A stretch of 64,000 bases of DNA from NCBI RefSeq assembly GCF_008298035.1, contig NZ_CP042910.1:1074001-1138000 (forward strand). The letters run 5' to 3'. Below are positions 36,810 through 40,876 of the stretch, one piece after another. Both the position numbers and the translations under genes were made by a program. The DNA is from Gimesia maris. Lineage in GTDB: Bacteria; Planctomycetota; Planctomycetia; Planctomycetales; Planctomycetaceae. Position 1 is the first letter of the stretch; each line of letters starts with the position of its first letter. Under the pieces are notes generated by a model. It saw only the letters and a program-made list of their open reading frames with translations, had not been told where the DNA came from and searched no databases.

Positions 36810-38318
36810 ATGGGCAAGCCAACCGGCTTCATGGAATTTCCCCGAGAACTGGGTGCAGACCGTAAACCCGAATTGCGCATTCTGGACTGGAACGAATTTC
36901 ACGATCATCTGACAGACGAAGAACTGGGGAACCAGGGTGCCCGCTGTATGGATTGTGGAATTCCTTTCTGCCACACCGGCAAAACGCTGGCTGGCATGGC
37001 TTCCGGCTGTCCGATCAATAATCTGATCCCGGAATGGAACGACCACATCTACCACGGTCGCTGGCAGGATGCGCTGGACAGTCTGCATAAGACCAACAAC
37101 TTCCCGGAGTTCACCGGTCGCGTCTGCCCGGCTCCCTGTGAGGGTGCCTGCGTGCTGGGGATTCACGAACCGCCGGTCACGATCAAAAACATCGAGAATT
37201 CCATCATCGACCACGCCTTCGATAAAGGCTGGGTCGTTGCCAATCCACCAGAAGTTCGCACGGGTAAGAAAGTCGCTGTAGTCGGTTCCGGTCCTGCCGG
37301 CCTGGCTGCCGCCGCTCAGTTGAATACTGCAGGTCACAGTGTGACTGTCTTTGAACGCGATGACCGCATTGGTGGCCTGCTGATGTATGGCATTCCCAAC
37401 ATGAAGCTGGAAAAATGGATCGTGCAGCGTCGCGTCGATTTGCTGGCTGATGAAGGGGTCGAATTCATCACGAACACCTCTATCGGCGTAGACATCACAG
37501 CCGACCAGCTGATGAAAGATTTTGACGCAGTGGTACTCTGCACGGGTGCGACCAAACCCCGCGATCTGCCGATTCCCGGCCGTGAACTGAATGGTGTGCA
37601 TTTCGCGATGGAGTACCTGTCGAAGAATACGAAGAGCCTGCTGGAGTCCGGTCTGGAAAGCACGCACTACCAGAATTCTCCCGTCGAAAACTTCATCAAT
37701 GCTGAAGGCAAAAAAGTGGTTGTGATCGGCGGTGGTGATACCGGGAACGACTGCCTGGGCACGGCCATGCGACAGAAGTGTGCAAGCCTGATCAACCTGG
37801 AAATCGTGCCTCAACCACCGAACGAACGTGCCGCCAATAACCCCTGGCCTCAATGGCCAAAAATCTTCCGCGTCGATTACGGCCACGAAGAAGCGGCTGC
37901 CGCCTTTGGTAAAGATCCCCGTCTGTTCCAGATGTCGACCGTCGAGTTTGTCGGCGATGATGATGGTAATCTGAAAGGGATCAAGATCTGCGAAGTCGAC
38001 TGGTCCAAACCAGCCGCTAACGGCGCGCCATTTTCGATCGTTGACGGTTCCGAACAGGAACTGGAATGCGACCTGGTCTTCCTGGCTCTCGGATTCTTGG
38101 GTCCCGAGCATATCATCAGCGAACAGCTGGACCTGGAACTGGATGGCCGCTCAAACTTCAAAGCCGAGCACGAGCAGTACACGACCAGCCTGGAAGGTGT
38201 CTTCGCTGCCGGCGACTGCCGACGCGGACAGAGCCTGATCGTCTGGGCGATCAACGAAGGCCGCGGCGCCGCCCGCGAATGCGACCGCTACCTGATGGGA
38301 GCAACTGAACTGCCATAA
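36810..38318 (+). CDS. gltD: Glutamate synthase (NADPH) small subunit
   Basis: 502 residues. Supplies electrons from NADPH to the large subunit. Two 4Fe-4S clusters near the N-terminus are indicated by the Cys-rich segments [12 protein letters not shown] and [12 protein letters not shown]-binding Rossmann motif [13 protein letters not shown] near residue 155 and NADPH-binding [13 protein letters not shown] near residue 310. The final [18 protein letters not shown] is the FAD contact near the C-terminus. Length is normal. It lies downstream of gltB and probably shares its promoter. Confidence 0.96.
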
Positions 38319-38389: not shown

Positions 38390-38779
38390 ATGGTGCAAGA
38401 TAATATTCAACCCGACCCAGAACAGCCGGGTCGCCTTCAGCAGACAGGCATGTGGACGGAAACGAACTGTCAGGTCATCGATCTGCCGCTGACAAAAGAA
38501 TCTCTGGTGCTGGTATTGCGCAGCGCCCTGGATGCAGAGCAGTCACCATATACCCATCAGGAAATCGCCTGGTGGGCCGACAATTTCCATCAGGCGCAGT
38601 TCGACTATGAGAACCCGGTTGACGAAACCGTTGCCGACGTCGCCCTCGATCTCCACCTGCAGTGGCAGATGTATCTGGATAACACCTATACCCGGGAAGA
38701 GCTGCAGAACCTGGATTTTTCAAAGGTCCGGTTACCCGCTGAGTACTTCTCTAACTGGCTGGAACAGCTTGAAGCATAA
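38390..38779 (+). CDS. Hypothetical protein downstream of gltD
   Basis: 129 residues, no family recognised. Predicted mixed alpha/beta; the central part (EIAWWADNFHQAQFDYENPV then DVALDLHLQWQMYLDNTYTR) is rich in Trp, Tyr and acidic residues. No signal peptide. An AAGGTG site precedes the start. It lies 71 bp after gltD without a visible terminator, so it may be transcribed with the glutamate synthase genes. Function unknown. Confidence 0.6.
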   Translation: MVQDNIQPDPEQPGRLQQTGMWTETNCQVIDLPLTKESLVLVLRSALDAEQSPYTHQEIAWWADNFHQAQFDYENPVDETVADVALDLHLQWQMYLDNTYTREELQNLDFSKVRLPAEYFSNWLEQLEA

Positions 38780-38839: not shown

Positions 38840-39871
38840 TTACTCTTTTGAGAGCGCACGTGAAATCATTTGCTGGACTTGCTTTTGTGTATTAATGGCA
38901 ACTAATTCCATCTCTTTGTGTTGTAACTGAAAGACACGAAAGATTTCATCAGCGAAGGCTTGTCCAATCGTTTCGACTTCATCAAAATCAAAGATGACTT
39001 TTTTAAATTTCTCGATTCTGACTAATAGTCTTTTCGCTTGTGATCTGGAAATGAGTTGATCGTCTCCATACTGCGCCAAGTGGACTGGAACAATTGTTTT
39101 AGTGAATCCATAATCATCATTTAAAGTGAAGTTATCAAAGACACCTTTTGAAGTTCTTGATGAGTTATTTGATAAATACATAAAAACTGCGGTACCAGAC
39201 TTATTTTCTTTGTGCTCGATTATCCAATCCTCCGTTTTGTCAAATTCATGTGAAAAATATGTTGAACCAGATGAAATTGCAAACCGATCGAACATTCGGG
39301 AACTAAAAAAAATGCCCTCCCCGCTATGATGATTGGGATCTGTTGTTAATTTCCCTTTAGCAAGTTCCAGAACAGAATGTCGTTCATCACTTAATCCAAG
39401 TTCGCGCTGGATTTTTTTGAAGATACCTTCACCGTCGTCAATGATCATGATATTTGTAGTTGAGGCCGTTTTTTCAATGTGAATGATTACTCTTGACCCG
39501 GAAGAATGGTCAATGGCATTATTTAACATTTCAGTGAAACCGTAGTGCCATATATCTCTGACATTGTCAGGCAATTCTTTTAAGAATTTTGAAATATCTT
39601 GTTGCCAGACCACATCTTCTTCCAGTTTATTTTCGAGGTCGTAGGAGTTGCTCCATTCAATGAGTGGATGCAAACTATATCGCCTGCTTCTCGTAGCCCC
39701 TTTTACAAGAATCGCTTTTTGTTCAACGAGTAATTTAATGTGTTTGTTGACAGCTTGTCTGGAAATTTGAAACTGACTCGCAGTAATTGCTACGATATCA
39801 GAAGAATGTTTTTCGACATTTTTTAATATAAACTGGCGAATTTCTTCACCTCTTTTACGTACTCCAACCAT
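38840..39871 (-). CDS. HTH / GHKL-ATPase / STAS-like (DUF4325) three-domain protein
   Basis: 343 residues. Residues about 5-65: a winged-helix DNA-binding domain of MarR/ArsR-like type (ITASQFQISRQAVNKHIKLL). Residues about 105-240: a GHKL-type ATPase with N box E114-x2-N117-N118, G1 box D145-D146-G147-E-G-I and a glycine-rich lid (HHSGEGIFFSSRMF). Residues about 285-340: a STAS-like DUF4325 segment (VIFDFDEVETIGQAFADEIF) with T301 near the position phosphorylated in anti-sigma antagonists. Kinase, its usual target and a DNA reader thus sit in one chain. The gene is visibly more AT-rich than its neighbours, suggesting transfer. Its upstream region carries a repeated 8-bp motif. The pathway is unknown; partner-switching-like autoregulation is inferred. 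Confidence 0.8.
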   Translation of the reverse strand: MVGVRKRGEEIRQFILKNVEKHSSDIVAITASQFQISRQAVNKHIKLLVEQKAILVKGATRSRRYSLHPLIEWSNSYDLENKLEEDVVWQQDISKFLKELPDNVRDIWHYGFTEMLNNAIDHSSGSRVIIHIEKTASTTNIMIIDDGEGIFKKIQRELGLSDERHSVLELAKGKLTTDPNHHSGEGIFFSSRMFDRFAISSGSTYFSHEFDKTEDWIIEHKENKSGTAVFMYLSNNSSRTSKGVFDNFTLNDDYGFTKTIVPVHLAQYGDDQLISRSQAKRLLVRIEKFKKVIFDFDEVETIGQAFADEIFRVFQLQHKEMELVAINTQKQVQQMISRALSKE

Positions 39872-40228
39872 ACTTTAATTACCTATTTGCAACCTTATTA
39901 GCATTGAATTGTGTATACAAGTGCATTTTATGCAACCTTATGTCGCAATTATGAGTATTATCGTCCTTTATTGTCAACCTTATGAAGTGGATTGTCAATA
40001 GTAAGGTTGTGTGTTTCATTGTGATGTGTACAGGTATGTGTTTTTGTGGTTCCGATATATATAAATAGCAATGTATTTGCCCAAATAGGATGATGTCAGG
40101 TCAATTATGGACTACAAAAAACTTTCATTGTAGGTTGATTGAACCTGAAACGTCCTGCTGGTGTCAGCTCTGAATTGTCACAAACGGTTTTTCAGATCAG
40201 AGCTGACCCATTGAAACGGACCGTCGCC
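39872..40228. other. AT-rich intergenic region
   Basis: About 360 bp between the divergent HTH-GHKL and macro-domain genes. It holds the CAACCTTA array (39890-40009) and then AT-rich sequence with a TATATATAAATA run near 40057. A TTG-started in-frame extension of the macro gene from 40139 is possible. Confidence 0.45.
39890..40009. promoter_or_regulatory. Operator-like array upstream of the HTH-GHKL gene
   Basis: The 8-mer CAACCTTA occurs at 39890-39897, 39933-39940 and 39975-39982, and its exact inverse TAAGGTTG at 40002-40009. The first three are 43 and 42 bp apart, about four helical turns, so they face the same side of DNA. The last pair forms an inverted repeat with a 19-bp spacer. The array covers the presumed promoter of the minus-strand gene (start at 39871), consistent with autoregulation by its winged helix. 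Confidence 0.65.
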
Positions 40229-40876
40229 ATGTCCCCCGTTCCTTTACAGAAAAAACTTCGGCTGCAAATCCAACTAACTGCCATCGATGAGCGGCTCTAC
40301 CAGGCCTGGCAGCGGTGGTGTGGCGATCTGTCATTTGTGAAAGTGCACCATGGTTCGATCTTTGATGCGCCTGCGGATGCAATTGTGAGTCCAGCGAACA
40401 GTTTTGGATTCATGGATGGCGGCATTGATCGGCTCTACCTGGAACGCTTCGGGTTATCAATACAGGATCGGGTTCAAAACCAGATCAGAGAAAATCATGG
40501 AGGCGAACTCCTGGTCGGCGCAGCGACGATGGTTGAGATCGAAGATTCGGAATTCCCGTTTCTGATCGCAGCGCCCACGATGCGGGTACCCATGCCGGTA
40601 GAGTCGTCGATCAATGCCTTCCTCGCGGCCCGTGCAATTTTCCTGTTGATTCGCGATGGTGTCATTCCCTGCTGACAGTATGCGGGTCAGCCGGTGCGCG
40701 AGTATGTGAACAGCATCACGGTCCCCGGCCTGGCAACCGGCGTGGGGCGTATGTCCTCCGTGCAATGCGCAAAGCAGGTACGGGCTGCAATTGAGGATGT
40801 GGTGTTGGATCGATTTCAGTTTCCTGCAAGTACTTCACAAATCCGAAAACGGCACGATCGGTTACTGGGGAAGTGA
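40229..40876 (+). pseudogene. Macro-domain (ADP-ribose binding) protein gene interrupted by an in-frame TGA
   Basis: The first part encodes a macro domain (ADAIVSPANSFGFMDGGIDR is the ADP-ribose loop; LLVGAATMVEIED follows). At codon 149 (40673-40675) a TGA stops the frame after ...GVIPC. The same frame then continues without further stops to 40876 with AGQPVREYVNSITVPGLATG and VGRMSSVQCAKQVRAAIEDV, the conserved second half of the fold. One base change (GGA to TGA) would explain it. The frame is otherwise intact, so the mutation is recent, or the stop is read through. ATG 40229 was chosen; a TTG at 40139 would extend it. A complete enzyme would remove or bind ADP-ribose. Confidence 0.8.

Follow-up and report, generated by a model that had tools for sequence, protein, structure and literature searches.

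Couples of a GHKL-type kinase and a STAS-domain protein act as modular DNA-damage sensors in bacterial immunity (PMC13373217). In one such system, a pair of genes that precedes immune operons encodes CapK (HTH-STAS-GHKL) and CapS (STAS-wHTH) (Chambers et al., EMBO J 2026, PMC13373217). CapK, in which the STAS domain lies between the HTH and GHKL domains and which has an ssDNA groove, is activated by ssDNA or DNA damage, while CapS has a conserved phospho-Ser54, recognizes TTAA palindromic operators, and represses its own promoter (PMC13373217). In a second system, VapKSC, three genes include one for a PIN nuclease toxin, and the conserved STAS Ser/Thr is found in a STAS protein without a DNA-binding domain (PMC13373217). 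Such split kinase-STAS couples are already known, and what is new here is a one-chain variant, found in a window (the whole 64,000-nucleotide stretch of Gimesia maris DNA that was analysed). It belongs to a common family in which a kinase-type domain, a STAS domain, and a DNA-binding head are joined in one protein, the phospho-acceptor is gone, and the gene moves across phyla together with a putative operator array.

Domain architecture and the place of the acceptor

The gene and the parts of its product are as follows.

38840..39871, minus strand: gene for a 343-aa wHTH-GHKL-STAS(DUF4325) protein, an open reading frame confirmed exactly as first annotated
39671..39868, minus strand: winged helix-turn-helix, residues ~2-67 (predicted structure, fold matches)
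39161..39661, minus strand: SpoIIAB/RsbW-type GHKL (Bergerat) ATPase domain, residues ~71-237 (Pfam, motifs, fold matches)
Within the ATPase domain: N-box E114/N118; G1 box D145-x-G147-x-G149; G2 box G184/G186; GT226-227
38849..39106, minus strand: STAS-like DUF4325 domain, residues ~256-341, with a IGQAFADEIFRVF core (Pfam, predicted fold)

The first-pass annotation had read an HTH, a GHKL ATPase, and a STAS-like domain in a single polypeptide, a reading on which the Pfam matches and the predicted folds agree. Two of the domains score above their curated cut-offs, namely DUF4325 (PF14213; residues 278-332, E 1.9e-14, 53.5 bits against a cut-off of 23) and HATPase_c_2 (residues 98-201, E 1.4e-6, 28.7 bits against 27.4), and the HTH gives a weak, sub-threshold Pfam match (E 0.04-0.08). 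Structure prediction, one of the checks then proposed, recovered all three domains. In the full-length AlphaFold2 model, a monomer built from an input of 80 family sequences (mean pLDDT 84.5, pTM 0.76), residues 2-67 form a winged HTH that matches MarR-type AdcR/ZitR and Z-alpha folds (VIA Z about 8.4-9). The winged HTH, which extends to residue 67, leads directly into the GHKL domain from residue ~71, with no STAS domain between them, and the ATP lid is disordered in this monomer (pLDDT below 50 at 173-181); residues 256-341 form a STAS-like domain of beta-alpha build.

As modelled, the ATPase belongs with the anti-sigma kinases in particular. SpoIIAB structures top its VIA-align ranking (Z 14.6, 14.4, and 14.3), followed by RsbW (12.4), UsfX (12.2), and LvrC (11.8), against a Z of at most 9.7 for topoisomerases, MutL, and sensor kinases, in a ranking limited to folds shortlisted by Foldseek, so that closer folds that Foldseek ranks low are possible. 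The DUF4325 domain, modelled alone (pLDDT 87.6), finds STAS domains in nearly all of its 50 best structural matches, led by RsbS (Z 7.8) and SpoIIAA (Z 7.4); with best Z values below 8, a STAS fold is supported rather than proven. Domains of the partner-switching type, with a GHKL part nearest to SpoIIAB/RsbW and a STAS-like DUF4325 part, are hence united in one chain, as had been proposed. A sequence search of solved structures gave at most a weak match to VraS, and none of the best matches of a viral fold search had all three domains.

A survey of the architecture across genomes, also proposed in the first-pass annotation, uncovered, in a scan of one genome per species, at least 474 loci from many phyla that form a coherent family. 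The sequences compared in detail comprise the best 80 of these, four relatives from the window's own genus, family, and class, and the window protein, 85 in all; each locus outside the window is taken from a single genome or bin, with its start codon assigned by rule, and the family counts are non-independent. The same single architecture runs throughout, with a length of 334-359 aa in 79 of the 85 extracted sequences. It is fixed and no chance fusion. The Bergerat residues N118, H122, D145, G147, and G149 are present in all 85 sequences, G184 and G186 in 84, and E114 in 83, and the winged-HTH residues R38, Q39, and H44 are near-invariant. The lid motif KGKLTT (172-177) is likewise near-invariant, and, in a profile comparison of the fused family with split kinases (E 7e-8), it stands in register with the lid motif of the VapK-like proteins.

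The phosphorylated residue is where the earlier reading finds no support. T301 had been put forward for this role, yet the position varies among relatives (Ser in 23, Thr in 19, and I, A, E, M, L, Q, F, or others in the remaining 42 of 84), it lies in the model in a loop ahead of a helix that begins at 304, and the serine of the antagonists aligns at Q304 instead. Specifically, profile-profile alignment sets IGQAFADE of the fused family against LTSAFLNA (probability 94%, E 1.4e-7), with the antagonist Ser at the Q304 position. Gln occupies 304 in 79 of 84 family members, Ala is usual at 305, the pair occurs together in 74 of 84, and a Ser or Thr at either position is found in 3 of 84. In 15 stand-alone DUF4325 proteins, aligned from two phylum-wide samples, 12 have Ser/Thr at the Q304 position and the other three have Ser at the A305 position; their genes mostly lie directly behind a GHKL gene. 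The fused family thus lacks the conserved Ser/Thr that SpoIIAA/RsbV-like antagonists have at the start of the second helix. Read from these alignments, the acceptor is lost in the fused family and kept in its split cousins; the mechanistic meaning of this loss is a matter of interpretation. S275, S277, and T259 are invariant in the family, and one of them could be phosphorylated.

The split couples to which these stand-alone DUF4325 loci belong are a large set in their own right. One of them, in a genome of the window's phylum (L122:344-2411), has the VapKSC layout of a GHKL kinase, a stand-alone DUF4325 protein with an ASPF serine, and a PIN protein. Further stand-alone DUF4325 genes, most of them behind a GHKL gene, occur at L119, L123, L124, L129, L135, L138, L143, and L145.

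A direct-repeat array at the gene's own promoter

Upstream of the gene lies an array of direct repeats, not remarked in the first-pass annotation, with the consensus AAGGTTGACAATA on the gene strand and a period of 21-22 bp in the family. The window's own copy is stretched, with its repeats at 0, 21, 63, and 106 on a 21-bp grid.

39990..40005, minus strand: putative operator repeat 1, CTTACTATTGACAATC (weight-matrix score 7.8), 21 bp from repeat 2
39969..39984, minus strand: putative operator repeat 2, CATAAGGTTGACAATA, the best match to the family consensus (score 23.8)
39927..39942, minus strand: putative operator repeat, ACATAAGGTTGCATAA, on the 21-bp grid, 42 bp (2 x 21) from repeat 2, right half degenerate
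39884..39899, minus strand: putative operator repeat, AATAAGGTTGCAAATA, on the grid, adjoining the start codon, 43 bp from the previous repeat
40002..40009, plus strand: fourth half-motif copy, inverted, TAAGGTTG (motif search of the window)
39948..39998, minus strand: putative overlapping sigma-70-like promoters, TTGACA-N17-GACAAT (39998-39970) and TTGACA-N18-CATAAT (39977-39948)

The copy at the place of AATAAGGTTGCAAATA is retained in G010. On the plus strand, copies of CAACCTTAT begin at 39890, 39933, and 39975, with the inverted copy at 40002, and all four CAACCTTA/TAAGGTTG copies in the 64-kb window fall in this gene's promoter. Further, the 12-mer AAGGTTGACAAT of repeat 2 occurs once in the 7.8-Mb genome, in the same promoter.

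Scored with a weight matrix of 137 sites, the upstream regions of relatives hold one or more sites in 79 of 83 cases and three or more in 54, against 3 of 83 in a shuffled-sequence control, and 115 of 129 spacings equal 21 or 22 bp; as the matrix was drawn from the same promoters that it scores, independent controls carry more weight. One such control is given by the upstream regions of neighbouring genes, in which a pair spaced 21-23 bp was found in 0 of 396 cases, versus 63 of 83 promoters of relatives, and any site at all in 15 of 396. The commonest layout is 21 and then 22 bp, with the final core usually 10-50 bp ahead of the start codon. Even the outliers keep the spacing, with CGCTTTACATT repeated at 21 bp in L084, which has a diverged recognition helix, and AAGTTTCCAAA repeated at 22 bp in L072. 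Within the HTH (residues 2-67), residue 42 is the most strongly associated with operator base 4 (z 5.4, 0 of 300 shuffles), an association that shared ancestry inflates. Sharing of the array by mere descent is unlikely, because the neighbours are unrelated and the proteins are down to about 50% identical. Given these patterns, the array is very probably the protein's own operator. The inherited unit is the array together with the gene.

The array overlaps the region's two best promoter-like matches, and an attractive reading of the 21-bp period is that one repeat would offer the -35 element and the next the -10 element. The array probably acts in repression, although a role in activation would fit it too. 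Bar a few isolated matches, the tandem pattern lies at the gene's own promoter in 22 carrier genomes and in that of the window. Likewise, a search for a regulon, with the tandem-repeat pattern in 24 genomes and the 12-mer in 20, returned sites at the gene itself with few isolated exceptions; these scans were strict pattern searches, which weak single sites elsewhere would escape. Separately, an identical array was seen on two contigs of one genome (G079:C201 and G079:C297), which may represent a second copy or a duplicate contig.

Distribution, acquisition, and genomic surroundings

Hosts of the family include Pseudomonadota, Cyanobacteriota, Acidobacteriota, Planctomycetota, Myxococcota, Chloroflexota, and others. 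The tree places the window protein, together with its 88% orthologue, among gammaproteobacterial and cyanobacterial copies, which are also its nearest relatives outside the genus among the matches listed, and apart from the 43-48% copies of the window's own taxonomic family and class. Phylum labels require 24 changes on this tree, where the minimum would be 10, and Planctomycetota appear in five places; some contigs in the bins may be foreign, and support for several inner branches is weak. The family has spread horizontally between phyla.

This history is mirrored locally. Among 17 genomes from the genus, just 2 have the gene, and its GC content is 37.0% against 52.1% for the window; of the sister genomes, G011 and G002 have an empty site between gltD and a macro-domain-like gene, and G014 and G013 have a different gene there. 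Low GC, empty or otherwise filled sister sites, and nearest relatives outside the genus bear out the suggestion that this AT-rich gene was acquired. Once acquired, it has been under purifying selection, as dN is 0.066 and dS 0.686 against the G010 orthologue (dN/dS about 0.1).

The surroundings hold some observations of their own. The slot that follows gltD (36810-38318) and ends at the macro-domain-like gene, as compared across loci L157-L165, contains, by species, the present gene, an unrelated gene (G013/G014), or nothing. A conserved 129-aa open reading frame (38390-38779, plus strand) lies between gltD and the present gene and is found in some sister species but is absent in G010. The macro-domain-like gene (named by eye; 40139-40876, plus strand) has 178 aa, against frames of about 215-263 aa in sister genomes, and its missing C-terminal part (MREYVNSITVPGLATGVGR...) resumes in another frame at 40694, so that it looks frameshifted.

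Beyond the window, the gene appears to travel without company. Any one neighbour is found at 4 of 80 loci at most, and adjacent genes may be on either strand; among these 80 loci there is no recurrent linked sigma factor and no recurrent downstream gene or immune operon, and no neighbour family recurs that would supply an operon with a PIN-domain toxin. The nearest neighbours show no dominant Pfam, defence, or mobile-gene family, PADLOC gave no convincing match, and defence matches among 128 adjacent neighbour proteins were scattered only. Homologues were absent from plasmid, phage, and IMG/VR collections at the thresholds used, and a relaxed phage search gave weak, partial matches.

Two copies, in L030 and L017, lie between attC-like sites of integron arrays. 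These loci (L030:6468-9133 and L017:2466-3780) come from different phyla, have nearly identical attC sites, and encode sister proteins in the tree, a pattern that suggests cassette transfer or mis-binning. An integron cassette as the general vehicle of the family was considered and set aside, with only L017 and L030 so placed, by a strict finder that possibly overlooked others.

Candidate mechanisms and comparison with known systems

On balance, we favour a reading of the protein as an ATP-gated DNA-binding switch that is self-contained, is encoded monocistronically, and regulates its own gene. We infer that it binds the array, that the direction is repression, that ATP gates it, and how its domains dock. 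Specifically, the winged HTH would recognize AAGGTTGACAATA-type direct repeats, 21-22 bp or two helical turns apart, over its own promoter, and the bound protein would sit over the -35 and -10 elements and the beginning of the transcript, so that its own synthesis would be repressed or tuned. The SpoIIAB/RsbW-type ATPase would dimerize and change shape with ATP/ADP, and the STAS-like domain, its canonical acceptor position without Ser/Thr, would dock on the ATPase face as an antagonist does on its kinase. Switching would then follow the state of the nucleotide and the docking of domains, perhaps head to tail from one repeat-bound molecule to the next. With no Ser/Thr at the canonical acceptor, a drive by nucleotide and docking is more likely than self-phosphorylation of the STAS domain. 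A symmetric dimer, as expected on a palindrome, fits direct repeats two turns apart less well than a head-to-tail arrangement does, and docking of ATPase and STAS domains of successive chains might supply the contact; with a monomer model whose ATP lid is disordered, this geometry is speculative. Our best guess for the input signal, by relationship, is DNA damage, as for CapK, or phage infection. The broadest version of the account is put forward only tentatively. In it, the widespread one-chain switch would do without phosphorylation of its STAS domain, form a polar, head-to-tail, ATP-gated assembly on the two-turn direct repeats, control its own gene alone, and be the sensing core of a stand-alone stress or anti-phage module that passes from phylum to phylum, in some cases as an integron cassette.

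A gene that regulates only itself has no obvious benefit, and part of the function is therefore missing from the switch account. A rival reading is that the protein, once derepressed, itself halts growth or blocks phage as a single-gene anti-phage or stress effector. Strong horizontal transfer, the integron-cassette position in L030 and L017, the variable-gene site in the window's genus, and kinship with the immune modules CapK/CapS and VapKSC (PMC13373217) all fit such a role. However, the chain has no nuclease, membrane, or other effector domain, the family was undetected in phage and plasmid collections, and neither PADLOC nor the scattered matches among the 128 adjacent proteins point convincingly to defence, so we regard this possibility as doubtful.

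A phospho-switch with another acceptor, be it some other conserved Ser/Thr in the same chain or a partner protein encoded elsewhere, is a little less probable again. The strong constraint on the Bergerat and lid motifs, the profile relationship of the GHKL domain to VapK-like kinases (E 7e-8), and the invariance of S275, S277, and T259 all speak for it. Nevertheless, GHKL domains such as those of gyrase and MutL work without phosphotransfer, no conserved neighbour presents itself as a substrate, and S275 and S277 lie where a helix (276-284) begins and are just as likely to have a structural role.

That the protein is an ordinary transcription factor with host targets is improbable, since its MarR-type winged HTH and clear operator motif are set against a tandem array and best 12-mer that are essentially unique to the gene's own promoter and against hosts of many phyla without a common gene context. 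Very improbable is control of DNA binding by phosphorylation of the protein's own T301, in spite of a kinase-substrate couple whose domains share one chain and of the CapK/CapS precedent in which STAS-serine phosphorylation frees the repressor (PMC13373217), with Ser/Thr at 301 in just half of the relatives (42 of 84), the antagonist serine positions lost at Q304/A305, and 301 in a loop. We give equally little credence to the repeats as iterons (replication or excision sites of a small mobile element, with the protein as initiator or recombination factor), which iteron-like spacing, mobility, and a distant PHROG match to the HTH of a replication initiation protein (E 0.03) recall, but which fits poorly with repeats that overlap the promoter right before the start codon in nearly all relatives, the lack of conserved partner genes, and two copies that travel as integron cassettes instead.

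The ATP-gated, autoregulated switch that we favour offers a simple single-gene system for asking whether GHKL-STAS docking switches DNA binding without phosphotransfer, and it raises the question of why a gene that seemingly regulates only itself stays under strong selection. A well-characterised family with another function, which the first-pass annotation had allowed for, did not surface in the open-access literature searched, which names DUF4325 in two papers, once each, and PF14213 in none; the nearest characterised systems, CapK/CapS and VapKSC (PMC13373217), are spread over two or three genes. The family, though widespread, is apparently unstudied.

Among known systems, SpoIIAB/RsbW and SpoIIAA/RsbV/RsbS give the best structural matches to the ATPase and STAS domains, respectively. 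Those systems are made of separate proteins with sigma-factor targets and a conserved acceptor Ser, whereas the present family is fused to a winged HTH and has neither a conserved sigma-factor neighbour nor an acceptor. LvrC, a Leptospira response regulator (9qih), likewise holds an anti-sigma-type GHKL domain inside a larger signalling protein (Z 11.8), but with a response regulator in place of the winged HTH and STAS domains. The VapKSC-like loci have GHKL and DUF4325-type STAS domains that are profile-related to those of the present protein, from which they differ in that the present family is single-gene, without a PIN toxin, has lost the acceptor, and has a DNA-binding head. CapK/CapS share with it the HTH, STAS, and SpoIIAB-like GHKL domains. 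Autoregulation by a DNA-binding STAS protein, demonstrated for its functional analogue CapS, is proposed here from a conserved operator-like array over the gene's own promoter, the sequence of which changes with the HTH. Two differences stand out. First, the present family is one wHTH-GHKL-STAS chain rather than two adjacent genes, without an acceptor serine, a second STAS domain, or a downstream immune operon. Second, its conserved sites repeat directly every 21-22 bp and are not TTAA palindromes. Since the defining features of those systems (separate genes, an acceptor serine, palindromes or a toxin, an operon) are absent, the protein is not CapK, CapS, or VapK; rather, the family is related to the CapK/CapS and VapK/VapS couples as a one-chain form and may work partly alike.
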